Shown here: piece after piece, positions 1-14,256 of the stretch
Position numbering within the stretch: the first letter of the stretch is position 1
How the letters are laid out: each line of letters opens with the position of its first letter
Source: Solwaraspora sp. WMMD1047
GTDB lineage: Bacteria > Actinomycetota > Actinomycetes > Mycobacteriales > Micromonosporaceae
Assembly (NCBI RefSeq): GCF_029626155.1
Contig: NZ_JARUBL010000001.1
Span: 6,848,501 to 6,912,500, forward strand
Length of the DNA stretch: 64,000 nucleotides
Direction of reading: 5' to 3'
Notes under the pieces: generated by a model
Database searches by the model: none
What the model saw: only the letters and a program-made list of their open reading frames with translations
What the model was told of the DNA's origin: nothing
Program-made: the position numbers and the translations under genes

Positions 1-721
1 CGTCGGCCGACCGGCCGCTCTTGGCGCGGGCCGCCCCGCCCTCGGCCATCTTCCGGATCGCGCCGCCGAGCAGTCCGCCGTGCAGCGGCGACCAGGGAAT
101 GAGCCCGAGCCCGTAGTGCCGGGCGGCGGGCAGCACCTCCAGCTCGACGTGCCGGGTCAGCAGGTTGTAGATCGACTGCTCGGAGACCAGGCCGAGGAAG
201 TGCCGGCGGGCCGCCGACTCCTGCGCGGCGGCCAGGTGCCAGCCGGCGAAGTTGGACGACCCCACGTAGAGCACCTTGCCCTGGGCGACCAGGGTCTCCA
301 TCGCCTGCCAGATCTCCTCCCACGGCGTGGTGCGGGAGACGTGGTGCATCTGGAACAGGTCGATCCAGTCGGTCTGCAGCCGCCGCAGCGAGTCCTCACA
401 GGAGCGGATGATGTGCCGGGCGGAGAGCCCCTGCTCGTTGGGCCAGTCGCCCATCCGCCCGTACACCTTCGTGGCGAGCACGACCCGGTCGCGGCGGCCG
501 CCGCCCTGGGCGAACCAGCGGCCGATGATCTGCTCGGTGACCCCCTCGCCGACCTTCCACCCGTAGACGTTCGCGGTGTCGTAGAAGTTGATGCCGTGCT
601 CCAGCGCCCGGTCCATGATCGCGAAGCTGTCGCCCTCTTCGGTCTGCGGCCCGAAGTTCATGGTCCCGAGGCAGAGCCGGCTCACCGACAGTCCGGTCCG
701 TCCAAGATTCGTGTAGTCCAT
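1..721 (-). CDS. aldo/keto reductase (3' end outside window)
   Basis: NAD(P)H-dependent oxidoreductase of the aldo/keto reductase superfamily; the substrate cannot be told from sequence. Reading leftward from the ATG at 721 the protein begins MDYTNLGRTGLSVSRLCLGT, a classic AKR opening. It continues with DTANVYG (catalytic Asp and Tyr), LATKVYG (catalytic Lys) and QMHHVS (active-site His), then VGSSNFAGW and QSIYNLL. About 240 residues are present and the C-terminal part lies beyond position 1. A GGGTG element sits upstream of the start. Its neighbour is an MFS exporter on the same strand, with a 54-bp gap. Family assignment is secure. Confidence 0.9.
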   Translation of the reverse strand, partial: MDYTNLGRTGLSVSRLCLGTMNFGPQTEEGDSFAIMDRALEHGINFYDTANVYGWKVGEGVTEQIIGRWFAQGGGRRDRVVLATKVYGRMGDWPNEQGLSARHIIRSCEDSLRRLQTDWIDLFQMHHVSRTTPWEEIWQAMETLVAQGKVLYVGSSNFAGWHLAAAQESAARRHFLGLVSEQSIYNLLTRHVELEVLPAARHYGLGLIPWSPLHGGLLGGAIRKMAEGGAARAKSGRSAD

Positions 722-775
722 CCGTTCACCCTGCCACGCGGAGAGTTCGAGTGACGATCGCCCGCCGGCAGCCGG

Positions 776-2062
776 TCAGTGTTCGGCCGCCGCGACCACG
801 TAGAAGCGCGGGGAGGGCAGCATCCGCAACCGCAGCCTGGCCCCGGTGCGGTGCAGCTGCCAGGTCAGCGCCACCAGCGCGGTGGTCAGCGAGACCAGCC
901 CGCCCAGCCAGATGCTCGCGCCGGCTCCGTAGTGCTCGGCGATCCAGCCGAGCAGCGGCGCGCCCACCGGGTTGGTGCCGAGGAAGACCAGCACCCACAG
1001 CGCCATCACCCGGCCCCGGAAGGCCGCGTCGACGCCCAGCTGCACCCGCTGGTTGGAGGCCTGCCCGAAGAAGACCATGAAGAACCCGGTCGGCACCAGC
1101 AGCGCCACCACCAGCCAGTACGACGGCGCCAGCCCGACCAGGGTGCCGAAGGCCGAGCAGGCCACCGCGGCGCCGAGCACCACGTAGACCGACGGGCGGC
1201 CCCGGCGACCGGTGCCGGCCAGCGCACCGGCCAGCGAGCCGGTGGCCAGCGCGGTGGTGAACAGCCCGAACGAGGCGGCTCCGGTGTCGAACACCGTCTT
1301 GGCCAGCGCCGCGAGGGTGAGCTGGAAGTTGAACAGCGTCATCCCGATCACCGACATCAGGGCCATCGGCAGCAGCAGGTCCGGCCGGCGCGCCACGTAG
1401 CGCAATCCGTCGACGACCCGGGCCGACGCCCGGTCGGCGAGCGGCAGCAGTTCGTCGCGGTGCAGTTCGTCGGCCCGCATCCGCAGCAGGAACACCAGCG
1501 GCGCCACCGAGCTGACCGCGCTGATCAGGAAGACCGGGCCGACGTCGAAGGCGGCGATTCCCACCCCGGCCACGGCCGGGCCGGTGATCCGCGCCGAGTT
1601 GAAGGTGGCGGCCGAGAGCGACAGCGCGTTGGGTAGCAGCGGGGTGCCGACGAGTTCGGAGACGAACGACTGCCGCACCGGGGTCTCGACGGCGTTGGCG
1701 ACCCCGAGCAGGGCGGCGAAGACGAAGACGTGCCAGAGCACGACCAGGTCGGTGAGGACCAGCAGGCTCATCACCAGGGCCAGCACGCTCCAGGCGGAGT
1801 TGGCCACGAAGAGCAGCAGGCGCTTGTCGTACCGGTCGGCCAGTCGCCCGGAGAGCAGGGTGAGTAGCAGCACGGGGGTGAACTGCAGCGCCACCACCAC
1901 GCCGAGCGCGGTCGCGGAGTTGTCCGACAGCTCCAGGACGAGCCAGTCCTGGGCGATGAACATCATCCACACGCCGATCAGCTTGATCAGCTGACCGGTC
2001 GCGAAGAGCCGGTAGTTACGGACCCGTAGGGACTGGAACATGGTGTTCAGCTTCGCCCGCAC
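776..2062 (-). CDS. MFS transporter (DHA3/EntS-like exporter)
   Basis: Twelve-helix major facilitator of the enterobactin-exporter/DHA3 type (428 aa), probably a proton-driven drug or metabolite exporter in the cytoplasmic membrane. The N-terminus MFQSLRVRNYRLFATGQLI is typical of this family, and the loop GRLADRYDKR after helix 3 is the MFS A-like motif. The GTG at 2062 is preferred because AGGAGG lies about 10 nt upstream; an internal ATG at 2041 is the alternative. It lies 70 bp downstream of a marR gene on the same strand, so the regulator plausibly controls it. The substrate is unknown. Confidence 0.88.
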   Translation of the reverse strand: MRAKLNTMFQSLRVRNYRLFATGQLIKLIGVWMMFIAQDWLVLELSDNSATALGVVVALQFTPVLLLTLLSGRLADRYDKRLLLFVANSAWSVLALVMSLLVLTDLVVLWHVFVFAALLGVANAVETPVRQSFVSELVGTPLLPNALSLSAATFNSARITGPAVAGVGIAAFDVGPVFLISAVSSVAPLVFLLRMRADELHRDELLPLADRASARVVDGLRYVARRPDLLLPMALMSVIGMTLFNFQLTLAALAKTVFDTGAASFGLFTTALATGSLAGALAGTGRRGRPSVYVVLGAAVACSAFGTLVGLAPSYWLVVALLVPTGFFMVFFGQASNQRVQLGVDAAFRGRVMALWVLVFLGTNPVGAPLLGWIAEHYGAGASIWLGGLVSLTTALVALTWQLHRTGARLRLRMLPSPRFYVVAAAEH

Positions 2063-2132
2063 TCGGGGTGCGCCTCCTCGTCGTACGCGTCATCCACATC
2101 GGTGGACGAAGCGAACGCGATGGTCGGCGCCG

Positions 2133-2564
2133 TCAGGCGCGGGCCACCCGCTGCAGGATTTCCGCGGCCCGCCCGAGCGTGTCGCGTTCCTCCGGAGTCA
2201 GGTCGGCGAGGCGCCGGGCCAGCCACTCGTCGCGTACCCGCTCGAACTGCGCGAGCACCTCGTGGCCGGCCTCGGTCGCCGAGAGGATGACCTGCCGCCC
2301 GTCGGTCGGATGGGGGGTACGCCGCACCAGGCCGCGCTCCTCCAGCTTCGCAACGATCTTGGTCATCGTCGGCGGCTGGACCCGTTCCGTGTCGGCGAGC
2401 TCCCGGGGAGTCAGCGCGCCCGCCAGCTGAAGGCTGGTCAGGGCGGAGAGCTGGGTCACCGTGAGGTCGCCGACCGGACGGGCCTGCCGTACCCGTCGAT
2501 TGAGCCGGGTGATCGCGTCGCGCAGCAGGGTCGCCAACTGCGCCGGTGGCACGCGCTTCGCCAT
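2133..2564 (-). CDS. MarR-family transcriptional regulator
   Basis: Winged-helix MarR repressor, 143 aa from the ATG at 2564, which has GGAG about 8 nt upstream. A GTG at 2582 would add six residues and has no comparable ribosome site. The recognition-helix region LADTERVQPPTMTKIVAKLE and the wing RRTPHPTDGRQVILSATEAG are diagnostic. It probably represses itself and the MFS gene that follows, because a palindromic site lies just upstream of its start (2586-2615). The effector is unknown. Confidence 0.9.
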   Translation of the reverse strand: MAKRVPPAQLATLLRDAITRLNRRVRQARPVGDLTVTQLSALTSLQLAGALTPRELADTERVQPPTMTKIVAKLEERGLVRRTPHPTDGRQVILSATEAGHEVLAQFERVRDEWLARRLADLTPEERDTLGRAAEILQRVARA

Positions 2565-2585
2565 CACCGTCCGCTCCGTCACGAT

Positions 2586-2615
2586 CGTTAGCTTAACTAA
2601 TAAGCCAGGCTAACG
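2586..2615. promoter_or_regulatory. Putative MarR operator
   Basis: CGTTAGC (2586-2592) and GCTAACG (2609-2615) form a perfect 7-bp inverted repeat. A second, overlapping one is TTAG-N5-CTAA (2588-2600). The stretch is markedly AT-rich against its surroundings and lies 22 bp upstream of the marR ATG. It is the natural site for autoregulation; protein binding is inferred. Confidence 0.6.
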
Positions 2616-2654
2616 ACCACCGATATGACCACCATCACGGTACGACCGCGGCCG

Positions 2655-4133
2655 CTAGAAGAGCACGGATTCTATCGGTCCCCGCAGGTAGTAGAGGACG
2701 AAGAGGGCGGCCACGCCGTACAGCAGGGGGTGCACCTCGCGGGCCTTGCCCCGGGCCAGCTTGAGCAGCACGAAGGTGATCACCCCGGCCCCGATGCCGT
2801 TCGAGATCGAGTAGGTGAACGGCATCAGCACGATGGTCAGGAACGCCGGGATCGCGATCTCGTAGTCCGCCCAGTCGATGGTGCGGATCGCCGTCATCAT
2901 CAGGAAGCCCACCACCACCAGCGCGGTCGACGCCGCCTCGAACGGCACGATCACCACCAGCGGGGCGAGGAACATCGCCAGCAGGAACAGACCGCCGGTG
3001 ACCAGGTTCGCGGCGCCGGTCCGGGCGCCCTCGGCCACCCCCGCCGCGCTCTCGATGTAGGAGGTGTTGCTCGACGTGCTCGCCGCACCGCCGGCCGCCG
3101 CCGCGATCGAGTCGACAAGCAGGATCTCCTTCGTCCGGGGCGGCATGCCGGACCCGTCCAGCAGGTCCCCCTCCTGGCCGACCGCCACCATCGTGCCCAT
3201 CGTGTCGAAGAAGTCCGTGATCATCAGGGTGAAGATGAACATCAACGTCACCAGCACCCCGGCCCGCTCCCACGAACCCAGGACGTTGAACTGCCCGAGC
3301 AAAGACAGGTCCGGCACGTCCACCACGGTCGCCGGCAGCTCCGGCACGTTCAGCGACCACCCGGCCGGGTTCGGCTTCCCGTCGACGAACGACGGGCCGA
3401 CCTGGGCGATCGCCTCCACGATGATGGCCAGCACCGTGGTGGCCAGGATGCCGATCAGGATCGCACCCTTGACCCGCCGGACCACCAGCACCAGGGTCAG
3501 CAGCAGACCGAGCACGAACACCAGGCCCGGCCAGGTGACCAGCTTCCCGCCGATGCCCAGCCCCACCGGGACCGTGGTGTTCGCGGCATCCGGAATCCGC
3601 CGCACGAAGCCCGCGTCGACCAACCCGATGATCGTCAGGAACAGCCCGATGCCGACCCCGATCGCCGTCTTGAGCTGCGTCGGCACCGACCGGAACACCG
3701 CCGTACGCAGCCCGGTCAGCACCAGGATGCCGATCAGCACCCCCTCGATCACCACCAGGCCCATCGCGTCGGCCCAGGTCATCTCCGGCGCGATCTCATA
3801 CGCCACCAGCGCGTTGACGCCCAGCCCGGCCGCCAACGCGAGCGGGAACCGGCCGACCACCCCCATCAGGATGGTCATCAGGCCGGCGACCAGCGCGGTG
3901 GCCGCCGCCAGCGCGGGGATCGCCAGGCTCGCGTTGTCGCCGTCCACCGCGCTGCCGATGATCAGCGGGTTGAGCACCACGATGTAGGCCATCGTGAAGA
4001 AGGTGGCCAGGCCACCACGAAGCTCCCGGTTCACCGTCGAACCCCGGGCGGTGATCTCGAAATACCTGTCGAACGCGTTACGCGGTCGGGGTGCCTCGGT
4101 CGTCGGTGCGTCGGTGCTCTGCCCTGTCGCCAT
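2655..4133 (-). CDS. NCS2-family purine permease (AzgA/PbuG-like)
   Basis: Membrane permease of 492 aa for adenine, guanine or hypoxanthine uptake by proton symport. The N-terminal FFTMAYIVVLNPLIIG and GVNALVAYE segments, and DFFDTMGTMVAVGQEG in the middle, are hallmarks of the AzgA-like branch of the nucleobase:cation symporter-2 family. About a dozen hydrophobic helices are visible. The ATG at 4133 has a GAGG element about 5 nt upstream. It is transcribed towards the marR/MFS pair but separated from it by the operator. No purine riboswitch was recognised upstream. The exact purine is not determinable. Confidence 0.92.
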   Translation of the reverse strand: MATGQSTDAPTTEAPRPRNAFDRYFEITARGSTVNRELRGGLATFFTMAYIVVLNPLIIGSAVDGDNASLAIPALAAATALVAGLMTILMGVVGRFPLALAAGLGVNALVAYEIAPEMTWADAMGLVVIEGVLIGILVLTGLRTAVFRSVPTQLKTAIGVGIGLFLTIIGLVDAGFVRRIPDAANTTVPVGLGIGGKLVTWPGLVFVLGLLLTLVLVVRRVKGAILIGILATTVLAIIVEAIAQVGPSFVDGKPNPAGWSLNVPELPATVVDVPDLSLLGQFNVLGSWERAGVLVTLMFIFTLMITDFFDTMGTMVAVGQEGDLLDGSGMPPRTKEILLVDSIAAAAGGAASTSSNTSYIESAAGVAEGARTGAANLVTGGLFLLAMFLAPLVVIVPFEAASTALVVVGFLMMTAIRTIDWADYEIAIPAFLTIVLMPFTYSISNGIGAGVITFVLLKLARGKAREVHPLLYGVAALFVLYYLRGPIESVLF

Positions 4134-4231
4134 GGGTGCCTCGCAACCTGGTCACATGATGATCAGCGCATCGTCCCAGAGGCGGTGTTTCCGGCAAAGC
4201 ACTGCGCGGTTACGAACCTCGATCCCGTACG

Positions 4232-4696
4232 TCAGAAACCGCGCTGGGTCTTGGCCCAGCGGACGGCGGCGGCCACCAGTTCGGGAAGTTCGGTGGGCGT
4301 GGGCAGTTCGGCGAGGTCGGCGACCGGGACCCAGCGGGCGCCCGCGACCTCCGCCAGTTGCGCGACCGGGTCGCCGCCGGGGGCCCGGCACACGTACACG
4401 AAGTCGATGTGCCGGTGTTGGCCGTCGCGGGAGTCGGTGACGTCCATCTCGATGATGGCCCAGGGTGTCGGGTGGCTGGCCACCGCCAAGTGGCTGAAGG
4501 TGGGGTCGCCGAGGATGGTGGCGCGGATTCCGGTTTCTTCTCGCACCTCGCGGAGTGCGGCCTGTGCGGGGTCCTCGTTGGGGTCGATGTGCCCGCCGGG
4601 GTAAAGCCACAGTCCGATCTTGTTGTGGTGGACGAGTAGTACCCGGTCCCGGTGGTCGAGGACGACGGCGGATGCGGTGTTGTGCCGGATCGTCAT
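4232..4696 (-). CDS. NUDIX hydrolase (last gene of the five-gene cassette arm)
   Basis: Pyrophosphohydrolase of 154 aa. The Nudix box runs from G35 to about residue 57 (GGHIDPNEDPAQAALREV then REETG), giving G-x5-E-x7-REVREETG with all metal-binding glutamates present. The ATG overlaps the stop of the upstream aminotransferase gene by 4 bp (ATGA), implying translational coupling. In this context it may hydrolyse a nucleoside diphosphate-linked intermediate or clean up a side product; that is inference. The fold is certain, the substrate unknown. Confidence 0.9.
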   Translation of the reverse strand: MTIRHNTASAVVLDHRDRVLLVHHNKIGLWLYPGGHIDPNEDPAQAALREVREETGIRATILGDPTFSHLAVASHPTPWAIIEMDVTDSRDGQHRHIDFVYVCRAPGGDPVAQLAEVAGARWVPVADLAELPTPTELPELVAAAVRWAKTQRGF

Positions 4697-5823
4697 GGGA
4701 GTTGCCCTTCGGCGAGGACGCGGACGCGGTCAGCGACCCATCCTAGAGTTGTCGGGGACATATCGGGGTGAACGGGAAGTTGGAAGGTGGTCGCGGCGAG
4801 GTGTTCGGCGTGAGGGCAGGCGGTGGCGTAGGGGGCGAAGATCTGTTGGTGGTAGAGCGGCCGGTAGCCGTAGCGGGTCGAGTCCGGGGCCAGGCCAGCT
4901 CTCGCGAATGCCTCGCTGAGTCGTGGGGCGAGGTGGGCCGCGCTGGTGGTGAGGACGAGGTTGTAGTAGTTGGGCTCGTCCTGCGCGTCGCCGTGGCCGA
5001 GTTCGGTGAGGTGGCCGCCGACGGGCAGGGCGGCGAGGAGCTGGTGGGCGTTGGCGCGGCGGGTTCGGAGCTGTCCGTGCAGACCGGGTAGCCGGCGCAG
5101 GCCGATGGCTGCGAGCGGTCCGGCGAGTTTGTAGTTGACGCCGTGGGTGCGGCCGGTGAGGTGGCCGAGGTGGGTGTAGTGGTCGATGCGGTCGGCGAGG
5201 TTGTCGTCGTCGGTGAGGACGAATCCGCCTTCGCCAGTGCTGAGGAGTTTGCGGTCGTGGGTGGAGAAGCAGCCGGCGCGGTGGTTGGTGCCGGCGTAGC
5301 GGCCCCGGGAGCGGGTGCCGTGGGCCTGGCAGGCGTCTTCGATGACGGGCACGCCAGCGGCGGCGAGGATCGCCGCGGCGGGGGTGTCGTCGGCTGGGTA
5401 GCCCCACAGCGGCAGGCTGATGGCGGCCCTCACCCGTGGGGTGAGTCTGGCCGCTACGGCGTCGGGGTCCATGGCGAGGCTGCCGGGTGCGGTGTCGACG
5501 ATGACGGGGGTGGCGCCGCAGGTGAGGATCGGCATCGCGGTTGGTAGGGGTGCGGTGGCTGGTACCAGTACCTGGTCGCCGGCGCGTACGCCGAGGGCGA
5601 CCAGGGTGGCGTGCAGCGCGGAGCTGCCGGAGTTGACCGCGACCGCTCGCTTGACCCCGAACCAGTCAGCCAGGGCCTGTTCATACCTGGGCAGGACGGG
5701 GGCACCGCCGGACAGGCGACCCTCGGCGAGGACCTCGGCGATCTCGTCGAGTTCCCCGCAGGGGGATGGGGTGTACCGGTCGTTGACGGGACGGGCCGCG
5801 TCATGGGTGAGCTCAGGTGTCAT
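4693..5823 (-). CDS. DegT/DnrJ/EryC1/StrS-family PLP aminotransferase
   Basis: Aminotransferase of 376 aa of the sugar/cyclitol type, which transfers an amino group from Glu or Gln to a keto-sugar or keto-cyclitol. Landmarks are NSGSSALHATLVALGVRAGD (phosphate and cofactor contacts, around residue 64), VIEDACQAHG (Asp163 against the PLP ring nitrogen) and STHDRKLLSTGEGG, whose Lys192 is the expected Schiff-base lysine. The start overlaps the upstream dehydrogenase by 11 bp and the stop overlaps the NUDIX start by 4 bp. Pairing a dehydrogenase with a StrS-type aminotransferase is the logic of aminocyclitol and amino-sugar pathways (oxidise, then aminate). Confidence 0.9.
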   Translation of the reverse strand: MTPELTHDAARPVNDRYTPSPCGELDEIAEVLAEGRLSGGAPVLPRYEQALADWFGVKRAVAVNSGSSALHATLVALGVRAGDQVLVPATAPLPTAMPILTCGATPVIVDTAPGSLAMDPDAVAARLTPRVRAAISLPLWGYPADDTPAAAILAAAGVPVIEDACQAHGTRSRGRYAGTNHRAGCFSTHDRKLLSTGEGGFVLTDDDNLADRIDHYTHLGHLTGRTHGVNYKLAGPLAAIGLRRLPGLHGQLRTRRANAHQLLAALPVGGHLTELGHGDAQDEPNYYNLVLTTSAAHLAPRLSEAFARAGLAPDSTRYGYRPLYHQQIFAPYATACPHAEHLAATTFQLPVHPDMSPTTLGWVADRVRVLAEGQLP

Positions 5824-6904
5824 AGGTCAGCACCACCTTGATGGTGTCCTGGGGGGTGTCGGTGATCAGCGCGTACGCCTCGGCGGCGTGGTCGAACGGG
5901 ATGCGGTGGGTGATCAGCCCATCGACGCGCACGACGTCCTCGGCGATGAGCCGCTGGGCGGTCTGGTTGAGCCGGTCGAGGGTCCACAGCGGATGGGTGC
6001 GCTGGTCGCAGCCGTTGATCGTCATGGAGGAGATGAGGGTGATGCGGTTGCGGTGGTATTCCTCGCCGAGGCGCAGGCCGGCCTGGTCGCCGTGGTAGGA
6101 GGCGACGGTGGCCACCCGGCCGCCAACGCGCAGGCACCGGATCGCCTCGTGCAGTCCGCGGTAGGAACCTGAAGCCTCGATCGCCGCATCCGCACCTACA
6201 CCGTCGGTCAGATCATGCACTGCCGCGGCGACGTCGAGACCGTCGTGGGAGTGGATGGCGGATACGCCGAGGGCGTGGGCAGCCTGGACGCGTAGCGGGT
6301 ACCGGTCGACGCCGATGACCAGCGCTCCGGCGTGGCGTGCCTGCTGGATGGCGAGTAGCCCCACGGTGCCCAGGCCCATCACCACCAGGGTGTCGCCGAC
6401 CTGCGGGCGCGCGTCGTGGACGCCACCGAGCGCGACCCGGGCCAGGATGTGAAAGACCGCCCGCTGCGGATCGGTCCCCTCGGGCAGCAGCCCGACCGCG
6501 GCGGTCTGCTCGGTGAGCAGGTGACCGGTGGCGTGTGGGGCGTCGACGGCGATGAGATCCCCGGCCCTCACCGAGGTGACTGCCGACCCGGTGACGGTGA
6601 CGCGGGCGATGGACTCGTAGCCGGGCGCGACGGGATAGTCCCGACCACGGCCGTGTGAGTAGAAGCGCCGCTGGGGGTCCCAGCAGCGGTGCAACGAGGC
6701 TGCCGAGCCCTGCAGCCACGCCATCTCGGTGCCGTGACTGACGCCAGAAATGACCGTACGGGCATACACGTCGTGCTCACCCAGCGGCGGGAGCCGCTGT
6801 TGGAGTAGTTCAACCTGGCCAGGTCCGGTGATCAGCAGCCGGGCGCACGCAGGCCCGGCATCGGTCGGTTCGCCGCCGACGGCGGCAGGTGCGGGCGATG
6901 TCAT
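5813..6904 (-). CDS. MDR-superfamily (zinc-type) alcohol dehydrogenase
   Basis: Medium-chain dehydrogenase/reductase of 363 aa with a C-terminal Rossmann domain (VVMGLGTVGLLAIQQARHAG, then an acidic GVDRYPLR, suggesting NAD). The catalytic domain reads SGVSHGTE and APGYES where classical zinc enzymes carry Cys and GHE. The catalytic zinc ligands are therefore not evident, a pattern seen in the BchC-like branch. The ATG at 6904 overlaps the upstream kinase stop by 4 bp and has GGAG 5 nt before it. The frame is open further upstream, but that overlaps the kinase gene and is rejected. It likely supplies the ketone for the aminotransferase. Confidence 0.85.
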   Translation of the reverse strand: MTSPAPAAVGGEPTDAGPACARLLITGPGQVELLQQRLPPLGEHDVYARTVISGVSHGTEMAWLQGSAASLHRCWDPQRRFYSHGRGRDYPVAPGYESIARVTVTGSAVTSVRAGDLIAVDAPHATGHLLTEQTAAVGLLPEGTDPQRAVFHILARVALGGVHDARPQVGDTLVVMGLGTVGLLAIQQARHAGALVIGVDRYPLRVQAAHALGVSAIHSHDGLDVAAAVHDLTDGVGADAAIEASGSYRGLHEAIRCLRVGGRVATVASYHGDQAGLRLGEEYHRNRITLISSMTINGCDQRTHPLWTLDRLNQTAQRLIAEDVVRVDGLITHRIPFDHAAEAYALITDTPQDTIKVVLTYDT

Positions 6905-7521
6905 CTCATCTCCGAGGGGAGCGATAGCTGCCTCACCTGGCGGGCAAGCTCGCGCAGGTGCGGCCGGTGGAAGGTGTCGAAGGTGGCCACGTCCAACCGG
7001 ATCAACGGTCGCTCCCAGACCGCGTACGCGGCGTCGAACGCGGCAGACAAGGCGTCCAGGTGAGCGCCGGTTATGACGGTTTCCATCGCACGGCCCCGTC
7101 GGCGCACCCGCTGGCGGATCACCGGCGTCGGCCCGGACATGCCCACCAGTACGTCGGGGCGGACAACACTGTCGACCCACACCCGCACGGTCGCCGTGAT
7201 CCGGGCGACGTCGTCGGGGCCGAGGGTGGTGGCGGCGAAGATCGGCTGTTTGATCAGCGCCCAGTCGGCCACGACCGTGTGGCCGGCGGCGAGTAGCCCG
7301 GCGATGTACCGCAACTGGGCAACCCGTAGCGCCACAAAGGTCAACTCGACCCGCAACGCCGACCCGTCGGACCGGTCAGCGGCCAGCATCTGAGGTAGGA
7401 ACGGATTGGCGTCGAACGGGTCGTACACCACCGTCGCGCCGAGCTCTGCGGCCAGTCGCGAGGCCAGAGTGGTCTTGCCGACCCCGGTCGGTCCCTCGAC
7501 TGCGATGTATAGGCCCTTCAT
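6901..7521 (-). CDS. deoxynucleoside kinase / thymidylate kinase-like P-loop protein
   Basis: P-loop phosphotransferase of 206 aa. It opens MKGLYIAVEGPTGVGKTTLA, a Walker A motif at residues 10-18 in the style of deoxynucleoside kinases and Tmk. ADWALIKQPIFA resembles the region holding the substrate-binding acidic residue of the dNK group, and RQRVRRRGRAMET is an Arg-rich lid-like segment. The ATG at 7521 overlaps the preceding small gene by 4 bp. The true acceptor could be a nucleoside, a nucleotide or the cassette's own product. Family-level call only. Confidence 0.8.
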   Translation of the reverse strand: MKGLYIAVEGPTGVGKTTLASRLAAELGATVVYDPFDANPFLPQMLAADRSDGSALRVELTFVALRVAQLRYIAGLLAAGHTVVADWALIKQPIFAATTLGPDDVARITATVRVWVDSVVRPDVLVGMSGPTPVIRQRVRRRGRAMETVITGAHLDALSAAFDAAYAVWERPLIRLDVATFDTFHRPHLRELARQVRQLSLPSEMR

Positions 7522-7796
7522 CGCAGGCCCGCAAGCAGCCGCCGCCACAGTGGGTTCCGTCGGGGAGGGGCCGCACAGGCCAGGACCGGCAGCGCCGTGG
7601 TGCTGTCCAGTAGCGCGAGTTTGTTCCGGTAGCGGTTCCGGGTTGCGGTGGCGTGCTCCTCGACGGTGCACGGTAACTGCTTGCCGCACGAGCACCAGCC
7701 GCCAGGGCCCTGCCGGTGACCGGCAAGGATCTGATCGGCCATCTCGATCTGACCGTTCGCGTATGCCGTGAACTGCTCTTTGCTCAGGGCTCGCAC
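7518..7796 (-). CDS. small conserved protein with CxCGx(4)C motif
   Basis: Ninety-two-residue protein, first gene of the leftward arm of the cassette. The GTG at 7796 is chosen because AAAGGAG lies 8 nt upstream. The middle of the protein reads GGWCSCGKQLPCTVEEH, a cluster of three Cys and a nearby His that could bind metal. The N-terminal half is helical (SKEQFTAYANGQIEMADQIL) and the C-terminus basic (RRNPLWRRLLAGLR). I do not recognise a characterised family; similar short CxCG proteins accompany XRE regulators in actinomycetes. Coupled by a 4-bp overlap to the kinase gene. Confidence 0.75.
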   Translation of the reverse strand: MRALSKEQFTAYANGQIEMADQILAGHRQGPGGWCSCGKQLPCTVEEHATATRNRYRNKLALLDSTTALPVLACAAPPRRNPLWRRLLAGLR

Positions 7797-7956
7797 GTGC
7801 GGTCTCCTTTCCGGTGAGGGGTAGGCGACGGTCACCGTTGGAGCGTGGCGCGCGCCCGTCGCGACATCTGCGACAGTTCCGTCGTGCAGCCATAAGATTT
7901 CTGCCGGGCCGGTGACGCCGCCGCCGTGGAGTCCACTCAAGCCGGGCGGTACCGAT

Positions 7957-7995
7957 GTCGAACAGTCTCGACACGGGTTTCGACACGACGTCGAC
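7957..7995. promoter_or_regulatory. Cluster of GTCGA/TCGAC half-sites in the divergent promoter
   Basis: The 310-bp gap between the two cassette arms (7797-8106) contains GTCGA-N6-TCGAC (7957-7972) and TCGAC-N5-GTCGA (7980-7994). The latter overlaps the 10-bp palindrome ACGTCGACGT (7988-7997). TCGACAC is also directly repeated (7968 and 7980). This is an operator-like layout for the XRE protein encoded immediately to the right. Binding is inferred. Confidence 0.5.
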
Positions 7996-8106
7996 GTTTA
8001 CAGCGAGCGGTCTGGCGTCCGTTGTCGCGTACCGTCCTGAAGGGATACGACCTGTCGTCCCATACCTACGATCCGGAACCATGCAGCGACGGAGGGGCGG
8101 AGTCTC

Positions 8107-9582
8107 ATGAGCGATGCCAAGCGGGTCGAGGAGGCGAGGAAGGCGCTGGGCGTGGCGCTGGCGAGGTGGCGCCACGCGCGTGGGTTGACCCAACTGGTCC
8201 TCGCGCGGCGGGTGCCGACATCCCGGACCACCATCGCCGGGGTGGAAGGTGGGCGGCAGTGTCCGGACCGGATCTTCTGGCGGCGATGCGACGTGATTCT
8301 GGGCACCGGTGGCGAGTTGCTGACCGCTCATGACCGGTATTGCCAGCTCAAGCAGCAACTCGACCGGCAACGGATCGATGCCGCGCAGCTGCGGCGGTGG
8401 GGCGAAGCTGAGGGTGGCCCTTCATCGGCCGGCGATCACGGTGGCCGCAGGCTCGCGGCTGCTCCACCGCTGCACGCCGACGCTGGGCCGGCTAGCGTTG
8501 TGGAATTTGCGTCCCGATTCGCCGACACGCGCGGCGAGGACCGTGACAGTGCCGGTGCGGCTACCCTTGCGATCATGGCCGGCGGACAGGCTTTCTCGTT
8601 CCCGTTGAGCCGTAGGGTGCTGTTCGAGATCGCCGCGGGCCTGACCACCCTCGGGGTCGTCAACGGCACGGATGCAGCGCCGCAGGGGGCCGTCGACCCC
8701 GCGGTTGTCGGGCACTTCGCACAGTTGCGCGCGTTCCTGGTGCGGGCCGACGACCGGCTGGGCGGCTCCACCATCCTGTCGACCGTCGAGCAGCAGATCG
8801 CCCTGATCGCGCTCCTGCGCCGTCAGGCACGCGGGCAACTTCGTGACCAACTCCTCAGCGCCGAGGCGCGCTGGAGCGAGTTCGGCGGCTGGCTCAGTGA
8901 CGACCTCGGCGACCGGACGGCCGGTGAGCGGTGGCTGGACCGGGCGGCCAGCATCGCGCAGGAAGCCGATGATCGGGAGTTCAGCGCGTACGTGCTGGCC
9001 CGCAGGGCGCAGCGGATGGTCGGCGGCGGCGATGAGGACCGCGTCGTCGGGCTCGCCCAGGCGGCATCGCGCGTCCCGGACGCGCCTGTGCTCGTGCGCG
9101 CGTTCGCCGCCGTCCAGCAGGCGCACGGCCACGCCATCGCCGGGGACTCCACCGCGTTCCAGGCCGGCATCGAACGGGCCCGCGCCCTCGTCGCGACCGC
9201 CCCTGTGCCCGGCGACAGCGACGGCGACCCGCTCGGTTCCTTCTGCACCCCGCCGTACCTGGCGGCGCAGGAAGGCGAAGGATGGCTACGCCTCGACCAG
9301 CCACGCAGAGCCATCGACAGTTTCACCACGGCCGTCAACCAGTGGCCCGACCGCTACCGGCGGGAACGCGGCGTGTACCTGTCCCGTACCGCACACGCCT
9401 ACCTGGCAGCCTCCGAACCCGACCAGGCCGCCACCGTCGCGACCGAGGCGCTGACCCTGGCGGCCACCACCGGCTCCGCGCGCGCCCACCGCAACGTCAC
9501 CGCCCTGGCCCCACGACTGGCAGCCTTCGCCAACCGGCCGCAGGTACGGCACCTCCTCGACCACCTGGCCGCGACCGGATGA
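8107..9582 (+). CDS. XRE-family helix-turn-helix regulator with C-terminal TPR-like domain
   Basis: Regulator of 491 aa. Residues about 8-70 are an XRE/Cro HTH (LGVALARWRHARGLTQLVLA, then TSRTTIAGVEGGRQCPDRIF). The C-terminal 250 residues are Ala-rich paired helices, for example GEGWLRLDQPRRAIDSFTTA and SRTAHAYLAASEPDQAATVA, typical of the TPR ligand or peptide-sensing part of actinomycete regulators. ATG at 8107 has GCGGAG just upstream. Its stop overlaps the start of the PfkB kinase by 4 bp, so the two are co-expressed, and it is divergent from the five-gene arm. Most likely the cassette's own regulator. Confidence 0.85.
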   Translation: MSDAKRVEEARKALGVALARWRHARGLTQLVLARRVPTSRTTIAGVEGGRQCPDRIFWRRCDVILGTGGELLTAHDRYCQLKQQLDRQRIDAAQLRRWGEAEGGPSSAGDHGGRRLAAAPPLHADAGPASVVEFASRFADTRGEDRDSAGAATLAIMAGGQAFSFPLSRRVLFEIAAGLTTLGVVNGTDAAPQGAVDPAVVGHFAQLRAFLVRADDRLGGSTILSTVEQQIALIALLRRQARGQLRDQLLSAEARWSEFGGWLSDDLGDRTAGERWLDRAASIAQEADDREFSAYVLARRAQRMVGGGDEDRVVGLAQAASRVPDAPVLVRAFAAVQQAHGHAIAGDSTAFQAGIERARALVATAPVPGDSDGDPLGSFCTPPYLAAQEGEGWLRLDQPRRAIDSFTTAVNQWPDRYRRERGVYLSRTAHAYLAASEPDQAATVATEALTLAATTGSARAHRNVTALAPRLAAFANRPQVRHLLDHLAATG

Positions 9583-10457
9583 CCCACCCACCACCCGACG
9601 ACAGCCACCAGCGGGCACCGCACGTCGTCGTCATCGGGCGCGCCAACATCGACATCACCGTCCGGATCCCCCACCGGCCCGTACCCGGCCGCACCACGTT
9701 CGCCTCAGCGCCGGCCACCACCACCGCCGGTGGCAAGAGCCTCAACCAGGCCCTGGCCGCGCGGCGGGCGGGCGCGCACGTCAGCCTCATCAGCAACGCC
9801 GGCGCCGACCACTGGGGCGCCTTCCTGAGACAGACCCTCACCGACGCCGCCATCGACACAACGTTCTTCCAGCTCATCCCGTCCGCACCGACCGGCATCG
9901 CGATCGTCGAGGTTACCCCCGACGCCGAAAACCACATCGTCCTCGCCCTCCCACCGGCGACCGAACTCACCGCCGCCCACATACACGACGCCCTGCCGAC
10001 ACTGCGGGCACCGGTCGTGGTCACCCAACTCGACATCCACCCCGAAGCCGTCGACGCGGTACTGCGCCACCACCACGCCGAGATCCTGATCGGCAACCTC
10101 GTCCCACACCCGGCCCTGGAATCGGACGCGCTGGCGGCGCTCGACATCCTCGTCGCCAACGAACACGAAACCGCCGCCATCCTCGGCCGGCACCACACCG
10201 ACCCCACCACCGCCGCCGACCACCTCCGCGCACTCGGCCCCCGAACTGCCATCGTCACCGCAGGCCACCGCGGCGCCGCCTACAGCAACCCCCACCACAC
10301 CGGCCTCATCACCCCACCCCCCACCCACGCCACCAACACCACCGGCGCAGGCGACGTCCTCCTCGGCACCCTCGCCACACGCCTCGCCCAACACACCCCA
10401 CTACCGCACGCCATCAACGACGCCGTCACCGCCGCCACCAAGCACGTCGCCGACTAG
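9579..10457 (+). CDS. PfkB-family carbohydrate/nucleoside kinase
   Basis: Ribokinase-like kinase of 292 aa. It shows VIGRANIDITVRIPHRPVPG, the GGKSLNQALAARRAGAHVS motif near the N-terminus (compare GGKGANQA of ribokinase) and NTTGAGDVLLG near residue 260, with the catalytic Asp in GAGD. The ATG overlaps the regulator stop by 4 bp. Codon use in its second half is odd: the coding strand is extremely C-rich and G-poor (runs of CACCACC-type codons) compared with the downstream genes. Substrate unknown; a sugar, cyclitol or nucleoside fits both the fold and the neighbours. Confidence 0.87.
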   Translation: MTHPPPDDSHQRAPHVVVIGRANIDITVRIPHRPVPGRTTFASAPATTTAGGKSLNQALAARRAGAHVSLISNAGADHWGAFLRQTLTDAAIDTTFFQLIPSAPTGIAIVEVTPDAENHIVLALPPATELTAAHIHDALPTLRAPVVVTQLDIHPEAVDAVLRHHHAEILIGNLVPHPALESDALAALDILVANEHETAAILGRHHTDPTTAADHLRALGPRTAIVTAGHRGAAYSNPHHTGLITPPPTHATNTTGAGDVLLGTLATRLAQHTPLPHAINDAVTAATKHVAD

Positions 10458-10618
10458 AGGTCGCACGAGCACCTCGGTGTGGAATCCCAATCGGCCCAAC
10501 GCTGTATTCTCATCACGTCGCCGAGCAGGCTGGGGTAAGGGCAGCAACATCGGCGTCGTCCGCGCAGGAACCGGAGGGCGGGTTGTTGTGCTCCCGGCGC
10601 TCGTTTGGGCAGCCTGCG

Positions 10619-10624
10619 TAACCT
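10619..10624 (+). promoter_or_regulatory. -10 hexamer (leaderless)
   Basis: TAACCT lies exactly 6 nt before the GTG at 10631 and no ribosome-binding site is visible, which fits a leaderless transcript beginning at or next to the start codon. Confidence 0.5.
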
Positions 10625-10630
10625 GGAGCC

Positions 10631-10897
10631 GTGCCCATCCCGTCGAACTCGCCACTTACGCCGCAGCCTCGACCCGAGCCGCTCGACCCGCCGATGGTGC
10701 CGTTCGCGGTCGGCGGCACCCTGGTCTGGGCCGTGGCCGGGCTGGTGCTGCTGCTGTTCTTCCGGGACTGGCTCACCGCACACGGGCACCAGAACTGGCT
10801 CGGCATCTGCCTCGCCGGTTTCCTGCTCGGCTTCCCCGGGCTGGCCGTGATGCTCCGGCACGACGCCCACCGCCGCCGCCGACGCACCGGCAACTGA
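10631..10897 (+). CDS. DUF2530 membrane protein
   Basis: Small inner-membrane protein of 88 aa. A Pro-rich N-terminus (PQPRPEPLDPP) leads into two transmembrane helices (VGGTLVWAVAGLVLLLFF and LGICLAGFLLGFPGLAVML), then an Arg-rich cytoplasmic tail (RHDAHRRRRRTGN). This architecture and the PFAVGGTLVW segment match the actinobacterial DUF2530 family, whose function is unknown. GTG start with a -10 hexamer 6 nt upstream. It faces DUF3027, encoded convergently 62 bp away. Confidence 0.82.
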   Translation: MPIPSNSPLTPQPRPEPLDPPMVPFAVGGTLVWAVAGLVLLLFFRDWLTAHGHQNWLGICLAGFLLGFPGLAVMLRHDAHRRRRRTGN

Positions 10898-10959
10898 CCG
10901 ACTCACCCGCCCGGCGCGGGCCAACGTCACCTATGGCGTGGGCCAGCAGCGGCCGTGGT

Positions 10960-11781
10960 TCAGCTGTGGCCGTACGGCTCCGCCGGCTCGTCGGCCTCGA
11001 CCGAACCGGCCGGGCGGCTGACCGAGACCGCCTCCACCGCGCTGTCGTCGTAGATGGTCGGCAGCTCCTCCACCGGGACCTCCGGGGGCGCCGTCAGCGT
11101 CTCGGAGTGGGCGCCGCAGCCGTGGTCGGCGCTCACCGCCCGGCCGTCGTCGGGGGCGTAGTAGTTCCCGCAGACCCCGAAGATCTGCCGCATCGAACCG
11201 GCCAGCGGCAGGTAGAACCCGCAGGAACCGCAGCGGGCCGGCCGGGGTGCCGCCATCGAGATCGGCGCGGCGGGGCCGTGGTCGCCGTCGTACCACCGCT
11301 GCGCGGTGTCCATCCGGCCCTCCCGGGAGAGCACCCGGGGCCGACCCAGCCCCAGCTCCCAGGCGGTCTCCTCGACCGCCGGGTCGTCGGAGAGCAGGTA
11401 GCCCGGCGCGAGTCGCTCGTCGTCCTCCGGGGTCGGCATCAGGTCGCCGACCCCCAGGTCGCCCGGCTGCAGCCGCTCCTGCCAGGGCAGCCAGCTCGGC
11501 GCGAGCAGGGCGTCGGGGCCGGGCAGCAGCACCGTCTCGCAGACGGTGACCTGCTTGCTGCGGGCCACCCGGGTGACCGTGACCGCCCAGCGCCAGCCCC
11601 GGTAGCCGGCCAACAGGCACTCGAAGAGGTGGGTCACCAACCGCTCGCCCTCGGCCACCGCGGTCAGGTGCTCGCCGACGTCGGCGTCGTCCACCTCCGT
11701 AATGCCGGAGCGCGCCACCTCGACCGCGGCGGCACAGACCTGATCGAGACGAGCTGCGCGCACGGTGGTGCTCCTGGTCAT
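10960..11781 (-). CDS. DUF3027 domain protein
   Basis: Actinobacterial DUF3027 protein of 273 aa, function unknown. The opening TTVRAARLDQVCAAAVEVAR and the tract AGYRGWRWAVTVTRVAR are family hallmarks. A C-terminal Cys cluster (CGSCGFYLP, then CGNYYAP and HGCGAH) looks like a zinc-binding site. The acidic C-terminal tail is low complexity. The ATG at 11781 is chosen; another in-frame ATG six codons upstream cannot be excluded. Divergent from the MFS gene at 11885, an arrangement that belongs to the conserved menaquinone neighbourhood. Confidence 0.87.
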   Translation of the reverse strand: MTRSTTVRAARLDQVCAAAVEVARSGITEVDDADVGEHLTAVAEGERLVTHLFECLLAGYRGWRWAVTVTRVARSKQVTVCETVLLPGPDALLAPSWLPWQERLQPGDLGVGDLMPTPEDDERLAPGYLLSDDPAVEETAWELGLGRPRVLSREGRMDTAQRWYDGDHGPAAPISMAAPRPARCGSCGFYLPLAGSMRQIFGVCGNYYAPDDGRAVSADHGCGAHSETLTAPPEVPVEELPTIYDDSAVEAVSVSRPAGSVEADEPAEPYGHS

Positions 11782-11884
11782 CCGGCCATTGTTCCCCATC
11801 CCCCGCGACCGGTCACGGCGACTCCCCCGCGAGTAAGTCGGGCCACCGCCGACGACCGTCGCCGGGATGGGCGAGGATGGGGGT

Positions 11885-13579
11885 ATGTCTGTGCTCGGCC
11901 GTACCGTGGGGACGGCCATCCGGAGCGTACGCCTGCTGCTGCGGGGGTCCGTCGGCAGCGGACGCTGGATGGCCCGCCGGGTCGGCCGGGTCCGGGAGAA
12001 GGGCGCCGCCGGCGAGACCGGCATGATGCGCCTGTTCGACCTGCACGCCGTCTCCTGCGCCGGCGACACCCTGATCACCATCGGGCTGGCCGGGACGATC
12101 TTCTTCAACGCCCCGGTCGGTGAGGCGCGCAGCAAGGTGGCCCTCTACCTGCTGGTCACCATGGTCCCGTTCGCGCTGCTCGCCCCCGTCGTCGGCCCGC
12201 TGCTCGACCACTTCCGGCACGGCCGCCGGTACGCGCTGGCCGCCACCATGCTCGGTCGGGCCTTCCTGGCCTGGATGATCTCGGACTACATCCACGGCTT
12301 CGGGCTCTACCCGGCCGCGTTCGGTGTGCTCGCGCTCTCCCGGGCGTACGGCGTCGCCCGGTCGGCGGCCGTCCCCCGGCTGCTGCCGGCGGGCCTCGGG
12401 TTGTCCCAGGCCGGCGCCCGGGCCAGCCTCTACGGCACCATCGCCGGGGCGGTGGTGGCGCCGCTCGGCCTGGCCGCGTTCTGGTTCGGCCCGCAGTGGC
12501 CGCTCCGGGTCGCCTCGGTGATCTTCCTGGTCGGCATGGTGATCGCGCTGCGGTTGCCGCCCCGGGCCGATTCCGACCCGCCGGAGACCGTGCCCAGTCC
12601 GCTGCGCGCCATCCTGACCCGGGGTGGCCGGGGCGAGAAGGTGCTGGGTCGGGGCGAACCGTCCGGCCGACTGGTGATCGCCACCCTGGTCGGGGCGGCC
12701 AGCCTCCGGGCGCTCTACGGGTTCCTGCTGCTCTACCTCGCGTTCGCGATCAAGGCCGGTGACCTCGACACCGACCTGTTCGGCCGGGAGCTCAGCGCCG
12801 AGGCGGCCCTCGGCGTGGTCGGCGGCGCGCTGGCCGCCGGTACCTTCCTGGCCACCGCCGTCGGCACCCGGCTGCGCATCCCGTACCCGGCGGCGTTGCA
12901 GTCCAGCGGCATGATCATCGTCGCCGGGGTGGGGGTGCTGGCCACGCTGCGCTTCTCGCTGCTGATGGTGACCGTGCTCTGCCTGGTCACGGCGATCATC
13001 AGCGGCCTCGGCAAGCTGGCCGTGGACGTCTCGATCCAGGAACGGGTCCGGGAGCGGCTGCGGGCCAGCTCGTTCGCGCACTCGGAGACCGTGTTGATGC
13101 TCGCCTTCGTGGCCGGCGGCGCGCTCGGCCTGATCCCGTTCCCCGGCCAGGTCGGCATCGGGGTGGCCGCCGGCTTCGGCGCGCTCGCCGCCGTACGCGG
13201 TCTGATCGTCGCCGGCCGGCTACGCGGCGAGAAGCTCAACGGCCGCGCCGGGTCGGACCACGACCAGGAACCACTGGCCCGTGATCTGTCCCGCCAGCCG
13301 GACGGCGACCCGGTGCCCGTATCCCCCGCACCGGCCCGGCAGCGGCCCGCCCCGGACCGGTCCGCTGGCCGACGCCCGGCCGCCGGGCCGACCAGCCCGA
13401 CCGCCCGGCCGACCAGCCCGGCCGCGCCGGCCAGCCCGGCCACGGCTTCGGGGGCGGCGGGCGTCGGGGCCGACGACGAACAGCTGGCGCCGCCCGGTTA
13501 CCACATCTACCGGCCCTCGTCGGCCGGTCGCGGCGCCGGCCAGGACGACGAGAACTCCCGCCGGGAGCCGAGCAGTTGA
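11885..13579 (+). CDS. MFS transporter-like membrane protein
   Basis: Integral membrane protein of 564 aa with about ten to twelve hydrophobic segments. It resembles the MFS permeases encoded next to mqnB in actinomycetes. After a basic N-terminal stretch comes MRLFDLHAVSCAGDTLITIG, and later VGPLLDHFRHGRRYALAATM. The last 120 residues are a Pro/Ala/Thr-rich cytoplasmic tail with repeated TSPTARPTSPAAPASP-type sequence. ATG at 11885, with GAGG about 7 nt upstream; a second ATG 18 nt earlier is possible. Its stop overlaps the TTG start of mqnB. Transport substrate unknown. Confidence 0.83.
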   Translation: MSVLGRTVGTAIRSVRLLLRGSVGSGRWMARRVGRVREKGAAGETGMMRLFDLHAVSCAGDTLITIGLAGTIFFNAPVGEARSKVALYLLVTMVPFALLAPVVGPLLDHFRHGRRYALAATMLGRAFLAWMISDYIHGFGLYPAAFGVLALSRAYGVARSAAVPRLLPAGLGLSQAGARASLYGTIAGAVVAPLGLAAFWFGPQWPLRVASVIFLVGMVIALRLPPRADSDPPETVPSPLRAILTRGGRGEKVLGRGEPSGRLVIATLVGAASLRALYGFLLLYLAFAIKAGDLDTDLFGRELSAEAALGVVGGALAAGTFLATAVGTRLRIPYPAALQSSGMIIVAGVGVLATLRFSLLMVTVLCLVTAIISGLGKLAVDVSIQERVRERLRASSFAHSETVLMLAFVAGGALGLIPFPGQVGIGVAAGFGALAAVRGLIVAGRLRGEKLNGRAGSDHDQEPLARDLSRQPDGDPVPVSPAPARQRPAPDRSAGRRPAAGPTSPTARPTSPAAPASPATASGAAGVGADDEQLAPPGYHIYRPSSAGRGAGQDDENSRREPSS

Positions 13580-14256
13580 GCCCGCCGGAGCCGGCGTCCG
13601 TCCTGGTGGTCACCGCCGTGCCGGCCGAGGCGCGGGCCGTCCGCACCGGCCTGGACGGCGCCGGGCTGACCGCCGAGACCTGGTCGGTCGTACCGGTCGG
13701 GGTGGGCCCGGCGGCGGCCGCCGCCGGCACCGCCCGGCTGCTGGCGAAGGCGGAGGCCGCCGGCACCGGATACCGGGCGGTGATCAGCGCCGGGGTGGCC
13801 GGCGGCTTCCCCGACCGGGTCGAGGTCGGGACGCTGGTGCTGGCCACCCGCAGCGTCGCCGCCGACCTGGGCGCCGAGTCACCGGACGGTTTCCTCCCCA
13901 TCGACGAGCTCGGCATGACCCCGGAGCAGCTGCGCGGCGGCGGCGCCGTCACCGCCGACCCGACGCTGTCCGGCGCACTGGCCACCGCGCTGCCGTCGGC
14001 CACCGCCGGCGTGATCCTCACCGTCAACACCGTCACCGGCACGGTCCGCACCACGCAGGCCCTGCGCGCCCGGCACCCGGACGCGGTGGCCGAGGCGATG
14101 GAGGGGTACGGGGTGGGCGTGGCCGCCGCCCAGGCCGGGGTGCCCTTCGCCGAGCTGCGGGCGATCTCGAATCCGATCGGCCCCCGAGACCGGGCGGCCT
14201 GGCGGCTCGCCGACGCCCTCGCCGCCCTGACCGAGGCCGCCGCCGCCCTCGCCTGA
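13576..14256 (+). CDS. mqnB: futalosine hydrolase
   Basis: Cleaves futalosine to dehypoxanthinyl futalosine and hypoxanthine in the futalosine route to menaquinone. The 226-aa protein has the nucleosidase fold of the MTA/SAH family: ISAGVAGGFPDRVEVGTLVL, AMEGYGVGVAAA (catalytic/ribose-binding Glu) and AISNPIGPRD (general-acid Asp). The start is a rare TTG overlapping the stop of the MFS gene (TTGA), so translation is probably coupled. In Streptomyces the gene sits beside mqnD; here mqnD is 7 kb away at 21245. Confidence 0.92.
   Translation: MSPPEPASVLVVTAVPAEARAVRTGLDGAGLTAETWSVVPVGVGPAAAAAGTARLLAKAEAAGTGYRAVISAGVAGGFPDRVEVGTLVLATRSVAADLGAESPDGFLPIDELGMTPEQLRGGGAVTADPTLSGALATALPSATAGVILTVNTVTGTVRTTQALRARHPDAVAEAMEGYGVGVAAAQAGVPFAELRAISNPIGPRDRAAWRLADALAALTEAAAALA

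Follow-up and report, generated by a model that had tools for sequence, protein, structure and literature searches.

In a stretch of 64,000 nucleotides from Solwaraspora sp. WMMD1047 (the window; contig NZ_JARUBL010000001.1, positions 6,848,501 to 6,912,500) seven genes at positions 4232-10457 lie around one putative promoter region, and these had been interpreted, in a reading made from the sequence alone (the original prediction), as a single cassette. Our comparison reveals that the seven genes are two separable modules: a four-gene core on the minus strand, encoding a dNK-type kinase, a medium-chain dehydrogenase (MDR), a DegT/StrS aminotransferase and a NUDIX hydrolase, and a plus-strand pair encoding an XRE regulator and a PfkB-like kinase. 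The core is a real, conserved and mobile operon, and our tentative reading, to which we assign a probability of roughly 0.45, is that this compact set of genes has spread horizontally and directs the biosynthesis of an amino-deoxynucleoside or its nucleotide.

The seven open reading frames (ORFs) were confirmed and, exactly as originally described, the minus-strand genes overlap by 4, 11, 4 and 4 bp and the two plus-strand genes by 4 bp; the gene families named at that time were likewise recovered with the Pfam and NCBIfam profile libraries, apart from the CxCG protein, which has no match in either. The features of the locus are as follows:

4232-4696, minus strand: NUDIX hydrolase (PF00293, 82 bits), last core gene; 4-bp overlap with the aminotransferase gene
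4693-5823, minus strand: DegT/DnrJ/EryC1/StrS aminotransferase (PF01041, 221 bits)
5813-6904, minus strand: MDR with ADH_zinc_N domain (PF00107, 73 bits)
6901-7521, minus strand: dNK-family P-loop kinase (PF01712, 54.8 bits; cut-off 27)
7518-7796, minus strand: small CxCG protein, first minus-strand gene, accessory
7797-8106: divergent intergenic region, putative promoter, carrying 11-bp direct repeats (7965-7975, 7977-7987)
8107-9582, plus strand: NsdA-family XRE/TPR regulator (PF13560; NF053720, 171 bits, cut-off 75)
9579-10457, plus strand: PfkB/ribokinase-like sugar kinase (PF00294, 142 bits)
4227-10659: stretch absent from relatives, approximate limits from the alignment with genome G010
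2655-4133: NCS2 permease gene, left flank of the insertion
10631-10897: DUF2530 gene, right flank of the insertion

Conservation of the four-gene core

The association of the four core genes is more than chance, because their order and near-identical overlaps recur in independent genomes. Among 200 genomes of the family Micromonosporaceae, 11 (our own included) encode the aminotransferase at E 1e-80 or better: in all ten remaining loci the NUDIX, aminotransferase and MDR genes are adjacent with order and orientation kept, and a dNK match stands before this trio in nine, with locus L022 retaining a 30-residue kinase remnant. Of the 11 loci found by scanning named genomes, five were already among the family loci; the other six come from Micromonospora endolithica (possibly the same species as genome G158), M. 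sicca, M. radicis, a Sporichthyaceae metagenome-assembled genome, Candidatus Frankia meridionalis and Micromonospora sp. NBRC 107566. Across the 16 core loci besides the window that result (ten family, six named), a NUDIX homologue follows the aminotransferase in every case, and 15 keep the complete trio with its order unchanged. An open kinase frame spans the matched stretch in 11 of the 16; elsewhere the frame is cut by a contig edge (one locus), masked (Frankia), split over two frames (Asanoa), reduced to the remnant in L022 or absent (NBRC 107566), so that, counting the edge-cut and masked copies with the open ones, a kinase gene stands before the trio in 13 of 16. In NBRC 107566 the middle of the aminotransferase is lost and neither MDR nor kinase was found, and in M. 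sicca the NUDIX match is split into two pieces, possibly by sequencing error.

The overlaps were compared in the named loci, using for each gene the in-frame start closest to the expected place as picked by script. The MDR and aminotransferase genes overlap by 11 bp in eight of ten loci measured (14 and 17 bp in the remaining two), the aminotransferase and NUDIX genes by 4 bp in nine of ten (1 bp in Asanoa) and the kinase and MDR genes by 4 bp in eight of nine (77 bp in the frame-broken Asanoa copy); Phytohabitans, for which no MDR start was found, stands outside this last count. The small CxCG gene most likely begins with a GTG at 7796, a start called by eye with GGAAAGGAG upstream of it; its product has a homologue (52%) in the same place in L023 and no match in the remaining 15 core loci.

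A phylum-wide search of 396 genomes returned our own genome as the sole match at E 1e-75, and among the 20 listed of 21 matches in phage records identity was at most 30% at coverage of at least 80%, and up to 34.5% over half. Decaying copies were also seen: an internally deleted aminotransferase (L039, 10001-11078), the kinase remnant mentioned above (L022, 11677-11766) and a kinase in two frames (L019, 9964-10555).

When 17 stretches around the core were compared, no protein cluster other than the core itself and antisense ORFs over the NUDIX gene occurred in more than five, and hence no constant further enzyme is seen beside the core; the commonest non-core cluster was of the XRE type. Some lineages do exhibit additions. 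Three M. endolithica-type loci have a methyltransferase gene (PF04672, Pfam run in L030) directly against the kinase gene, and in L030 the end of this S-adenosyl methyltransferase gene overlaps the kinase start. The region upstream of the core in L030 (3905-8309) encodes an amino acid permease, an acetamidase-like protein, a GPP34 protein and the methyltransferase. M. radicis and M. andamanensis have in common a five-ORF upstream block with a pyridoxal 5'-phosphate (PLP) decarboxylase (ORFs called by script, Pfam run in M. radicis); in L033 four ORFs without a Pfam match and a PLP decarboxylase lie directly upstream of the core (3371-8203).

Two separable modules

The gene-order comparison that the original prediction had proposed as its own check thus supports part of it: the four-gene core recurs in order, and the XRE-PfkB pair proves to be separate. 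PfkB homologues occur at E 1e-35 in 16 of the 200 family genomes, own included, and the 15 carriers among the other 199 have no genome in common with the ten aminotransferase carriers; as about 0.75 shared genomes would be expected by chance, this fails to support linkage without disproving it. Six of the 15 PfkB loci were opened: an XRE homologue (46-52%) lies beside PfkB in three, and the core was not found in any of the six (L105 has a 54-residue partial NUDIX match about 6 kb from PfkB). In turn, PfkB matches are lacking at all 16 other core loci. Since the XRE-PfkB pair is found without the core and the core without PfkB, we do not count PfkB as a pathway enzyme. A single regulated pathway of all seven genes is an idea encouraged by their position around one promoter region, within one stretch absent from relatives, but in view of this distribution we hold it to be very improbable. 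Of the dedicated oxidise-then-aminate pathway originally proposed, there stands the minus-strand operon, conserved across genomes; the inclusion of all seven genes does not, and the single cassette has to be given up.

The XRE-PfkB pair may share a promoter region with the core, and nothing ties the pair to the core chemistry. In L023 a weaker NsdA-type regulator (28%) occupies the equivalent divergent position, and hence a regulator in this place may be of benefit and may be swapped for another. The 11-bp direct repeats of the divergent region in the window (GTCTCGACACG and GTTTCGACACG, starting 12 bp apart within 7965-7987) are a possible regulator site, although a role as operator is a guess. 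Pairs of an NsdA-type XRE gene and PfkB standing alone were observed in Micromonosporaceae at L103 (8227-10544), L104 (6743-9066) and L105 (8062-10298).

Gain of the locus and horizontal spread

In the window the NCS2 permease and DUF2530 genes lie 6.5 kb apart, whilst the block MFS-MarR-NCS2-DUF2530-DUF3027-MFS-MqnB is uninterrupted in four relatives (G010, G003, G018 and G008). Alignment with G010 shows homology ending at window position 4226 and restarting at 10660; with G003, G018 and G008 homology stops at 4085-4116 on the left and restarts at 10666-10679 on the right. Because the NCS2/DUF2530 site is empty in relatives, the two modules together fill approximately 6.4 kb that was gained here, with loss in many relatives being less likely. 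Amongst 28 NCS2 loci of other genomes, NCS2, DUF2530 and DUF3027 lie together in seven, with the first two matches 90-254 bp apart; one further locus weakly exhibits the same arrangement, one has a different order and the remaining ones lack one or both partners within 1.5 kb either side. No aminotransferase or NUDIX gene was present at this site in any of the 28. The NCS2 permease gene (2655-4133) was considered as a cassette member and rejected, being contiguous with DUF2530 and DUF3027 in the cassette-free sites of relatives. With regard to entry by way of a mobile element, no tRNA was detected by ARAGORN in window positions 1-20000 and there is no clear drop in guanine-plus-cytosine content; the check for integrases covered the ten window proteins run against Pfam.

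The core itself appears to have moved more widely. G018 has an empty NCS2/DUF2530 site, yet it has the core elsewhere in its genome, and core neighbourhoods vary between genomes, close relatives excepted. The aminotransferase of Candidatus Frankia meridionalis is 76% identical to that of the window and nests among those of Micromonosporaceae (support 97/93). The varied surroundings and this nested position together indicate horizontal spread of the core.

Features of the core enzymes

In order to relate the core proteins to characterised enzymes, their motifs, profile matches and predicted structures were compared. At E 0.001 the genome has no PF01712 match other than the kinase, whose profile score and fold both place it in the family. 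The protein exhibits the motifs GPTGVGKTTL, DPF..NPFL, DW and R...RGR.ME, and the P-loop, DPF..NP.L and R.R..E stretches are conserved. Its predicted structure (mean predicted local distance difference test score, pLDDT, of 89) has 8puu as best structural match (Z 23.0, root mean square deviation 2.6, 199 residues aligned), with Giardia and Mycoplasma deoxyadenosine kinases, human dCK and a dNK-like complex I subunit as neighbours. AbmG, the dNK-type kinase from albomycin biosynthesis, appears in the Foldseek list but not among the 50 VIA-align rows shown; the VIA-align rows were used for the fold only.

The MDR carries SHGTE and GYES at what we take to be the catalytic zinc-ligand positions of zinc MDRs, and S-H-G-T-E and G-Y-E/D are found in all 11 rows aligned. 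The Cys and GHE of a zinc-dependent MDR alcohol dehydrogenase are therefore missing (the pairing of GHE with GYE being taken from the alignment), whilst the cofactor stretch GLGTVGL is conserved. The model is of middling confidence (mean pLDDT 75), and the PDB structures it matches, dehydrogenases acting on alcohols, polyols and quinones, are generic and uninformative as to the substrate; the best NCBIfam model is scyllo-inosose 3-dehydrogenase, far below its cut-off (67 vs 450 bits). In the aminotransferase, K192 in the STHDRKLLSTGEGG stretch, presumably the PLP lysine, is invariant and the enzyme looks intact. The Nudix box GGHIDPNEDPAQAALREVREETGI of the hydrolase is intact, as it is in all nine cassette members aligned.

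The genome (8.16 Mb, two contigs) holds eight DegT matches, the second-best of which is 34% identical to the cassette aminotransferase. In a tree of aminotransferases the MDR-linked enzymes form one clade (96/90) apart from those linked to Gfo/Idh dehydrogenases; monophyly of the Gfo-linked enzymes is unsupported (34/6). MDR- and Gfo-linked enzymes together separate from the paralogues of our own genome at moderate support (81/94), and long branches occur among those paralogues and for two of the Gfo-linked rows.

Comparison with nucleoside pathways

The closest parallels to the core lie in the biosynthesis of aminonucleosides. Pur10 is a dehydrogenase of the Gfo/Idh type and Pur4 belongs to the DegT family, and a NUDIX hydrolase begins the 2'-amino-2'-deoxyadenosine pathway. 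According to the papers cited here and below, Pur10 (an ATP dehydrogenase dependent on nicotinamide adenine dinucleotide), Pur4 (aminotransferase), Pur7 (NUDIX) and Pur3 (monophosphatase) build the 3'-aminonucleoside of puromycin, and Pur7 is counted among the enzymes mediating resistance (PMC11641026). The homologues of pur10, pur4, pur7 and pur3 in Photorhabdus luminescens, adgB-E, suffice for formation of 3'-amino-3'-deoxyguanosine in E. coli, the order proposed by the authors being oxidation, loss of two phosphates, amination and dephosphorylation (PMC9239236). In 4'-thiothymidine biosynthesis (thmA-C of Photorhabdus asymbiotica) an AbmG-like kinase, ThmB, and a triphosphatase, ThmC, are encoded alongside a radical SAM enzyme; thmC alone confers self-resistance to 4'-thiothymidine, and the albomycin enzyme AbmG is described as catalysing phosphorylation and dehydration (PMC12691670). 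A 2'-amino-2'-deoxyadenosine cluster is mentioned in PMC12648386 and PMC13055916.

As in the core genes of puromycin, cystocin and A201A, the window core combines dehydrogenase, aminotransferase and NUDIX hydrolase: the DegT aminotransferase adjoins the dehydrogenase and the operon includes a NUDIX gene with an intact Nudix box. In contrast to these systems the sole dehydrogenase is an MDR (PF00107) rather than a Gfo/Idh enzyme, a dNK-type kinase is added, peptidyl or methyl tailoring is absent from the core and no Pur3-like monophosphatase is present among the seven genes, the rest of the genome not having been searched for one. The adgA-E operon resembles the core in being minimal and in its pur10, pur4 and pur7 homologues, but it includes a pur3 homologue (adgE) and an MFS exporter (adgA), both lacking in the window core, which has the kinase instead. 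The thm and albomycin systems resemble it in placing a dNK-family kinase beside a sugar-modifying enzyme, joined in thm by a triphosphatase; in both pathways sulfur enters the ring (in thm with a radical SAM enzyme), whereas oxidation and amination are predicted for the window core. Hence the core works like a puromycin-type pathway, but by the features compared it is not a member. The literature search found no report of a cassette with this make-up, in agreement, as regards an exact match, with the original prediction, which could name no matching characterised cluster; this prediction did not name the close parallels in Pur10/Pur4/Pur7 and adgB-E and in the dNK-type kinases of the albomycin and 4'-thiothymidine clusters. 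It is these parallels that move the best reading of the product, originally given as an aminated sugar, cyclitol or nucleoside, towards nucleosides and away from cyclitols.

Proposed role of the core

Taken together, the kinase and NUDIX hydrolase suggest a nucleotide substrate. The kinase would install the 5'-phosphate of a (deoxy)nucleoside: here family and fold are observed, with the substrate predicted. The MDR, judging by its family and its constant pairing, would convert one hydroxyl (2' or 3') on the sugar of the nucleotide to a ketone, which the DegT/StrS enzyme would aminate. The NUDIX hydrolase would take a nucleoside triphosphate to the monophosphate; this would either supply a pathway intermediate, the role proposed for Pur7 and AdgD, or protect the producer from its own chain-terminating triphosphate. 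The core would in this way merge the puromycin/adg and thm plans: phosphorylate, oxidise, aminate and clear the triphosphate. It is possible, at odds clearly below even, that it represents a minimal, undescribed aminonucleoside route, kinase-primed and with a zinc-less MDR in place of a Pur10-type enzyme, whose four translationally coupled genes travel together between free-living actinomycetes and plant symbionts, Candidatus Frankia meridionalis among them, and need no other dedicated gene, and whose product is a new nucleoside antibiotic or a nucleotide-level signal.

Several observations weigh against an aminonucleoside product. An invariant D86-W87 (11 of 11 rows) occupies the place where the matched kinases have DRS or DRT, so that the D/E-R-S motif is missing, and the kinase is less conserved than its neighbours (42-60% over long matches). 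These two features, together with the L022 remnant, the two frames in Asanoa and the failure to find the gene in NBRC 107566, suggest that the kinase may be dispensable. The core includes no phosphatase and no exporter, and the likeness to Pur4, Pur7, Pur10 and the Adg enzymes rests on descriptions rather than on sequence comparison. The PDB profile matches of the aminotransferase are generic, with perosamine synthetase and scyllo-inositol transaminase leading at near-equal scores; the top three for the NUDIX hydrolase carry no substrate in their names and weaker ones include diadenosine tetraphosphate (Ap4A) hydrolases. Finally, in Nonomuraea the gene of an MDR relative (34%) has neighbouring ORFs that by eye resemble sugar uptake and sugar isomerase genes, which fits a sugar substrate.

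The main rival reading is that the core makes an aminocyclitol or amino sugar, with the MDR oxidising an inositol, a hexose or a sugar phosphate, the DegT/StrS enzyme aminating it, the kinase phosphorylating the product and the NUDIX hydrolase acting on an activated (nucleoside diphosphate- or diphospho-) form. MDR and DegT enzymes occur together in 2-deoxystreptamine pathways, and this pairing, the scyllo-inosose 3-dehydrogenase model (despite its low score), the scyllo-inositol transaminase match and the Nonomuraea neighbourhood all speak for such a product. We nevertheless consider it unlikely: among the seven genes there is no 2-deoxy-scyllo-inosose synthase or other cyclitol synthase, as 2-deoxystreptamine formation would require, nor the nucleotidylyltransferase and 4,6-dehydratase of deoxyamino sugar pathways of the StrS/DesI type, although these could lie elsewhere, and a dNK-family kinase would be an odd choice for a sugar.

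The same enzymes could also run in reverse, in detoxification or salvage: the kinase would trap a competitor's aminonucleoside, the aminotransferase deaminate it to the ketone, the MDR reduce this and the NUDIX hydrolase destroy the toxic triphosphate. The patchy distribution, mixed surroundings and missing exporter would suit this, as would a NUDIX enzyme acting as triphosphate sanitiser, given that ThmC is an NTPase (nucleoside triphosphatase) providing resistance to a nucleoside antibiotic (PMC12691670). But as an NTPase alone can confer resistance, four tightly coupled genes appear costly for the purpose, and with no tool result in its favour this explanation seems improbable. There is a similarly small chance that the core is a tailoring unit that supplies an aminated building block to another cluster in the genome, the product being larger than a simple aminonucleoside: the methyltransferase abutting the kinase and the five-ORF decarboxylase block described above point in this direction, yet such additions depend on lineage and are missing from most core loci.

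Should the aminonucleoside reading be correct, the overlap signature of MDR, DegT and NUDIX genes together with the dNK gene would serve as a probe for small aminonucleoside operons, which would escape searches keyed on a Gfo/Idh-type Pur10, and the four-gene set would be small enough to be expressed whole. It would also mean that oxidation before sugar amination has been recruited more than once in nucleosides. 3'-Amino-3'-deoxyguanosine and 4'-thiothymidine are recent cases of minimal operons encoding real antibiotics (PMC9239236, PMC12691670). If the product is instead a cyclitol or amino sugar, the core is still an uncharacterised, mobile amination unit.

Related gene runs on plasmids and in actinomycetes

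Wider relatives were found in plasmid records of Mycetohabitans, Pantoea ananatis and Rhizobium sp. BT04 as runs of Gfo/Idh, DegT and NUDIX genes, the dehydrogenase thus differing from the MDR of the window core. The Gfo-adjacent aminotransferases are 32-42% and the NUDIX proteins 29-46% identical to those of the window; Mycetohabitans has the nearest Gfo/Idh-associated aminotransferase (42%) and NUDIX protein (46% over 107 residues) in a single gene run, a parallel that counts in favour of the aminonucleoside reading. No Pfam match was obtained for a P-loop protein encoded near the Rhizobium set. A Gfo/Idh profile search in 392 genomes of one genus gave three loci, none matching the DegT or NUDIX queries.

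The Mycetohabitans and Pantoea clusters are larger than the window core. On the Mycetohabitans rhizoxinica megaplasmid (L041, 7935-18575) and the Pantoea ananatis plasmid (L043, 7378-19056) they are long and similar, encoding Gfo/Idh, two DegT, flavin adenine dinucleotide enzyme, HAD, fatty acid desaturase, methylthioadenosine-phosphorylase-like, two NUDIX, substrate-binding and MFS proteins. These clusters, from a fungal endosymbiont and an onion isolate, look like an uncharacterised amino-nucleoside or amino-sugar pathway. On a Yersinia frederiksenii plasmid (L055, 7763-8468) a DegT fragment and a NUDIX gene (38%) lie between transfer genes and an IS6 transposase gene; this piece looks like a remnant of a larger operon, and nothing resembling it was found in the E. 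coli genomes searched.

MDR-DegT pairs occur on the Rhodococcus opacus plasmid pCP135 (L042) and in an actinomycete (L046; one of 392 genomes of a species-rich genus, presumably Streptomyces). Their MDRs are 37-41% and their aminotransferases 43-45% identical to those of the window, to which they form the sister clade (96/90). Unlike the window core they have no NUDIX or dNK match in the stretches examined, and luciferase-like monooxygenases follow the pair. In L046 (8385-13428) the MDR-DegT pair is followed by an ORF without a Pfam match (with a HAD-like start by eye), a luciferase-like monooxygenase and a cytidine deaminase-family protein.

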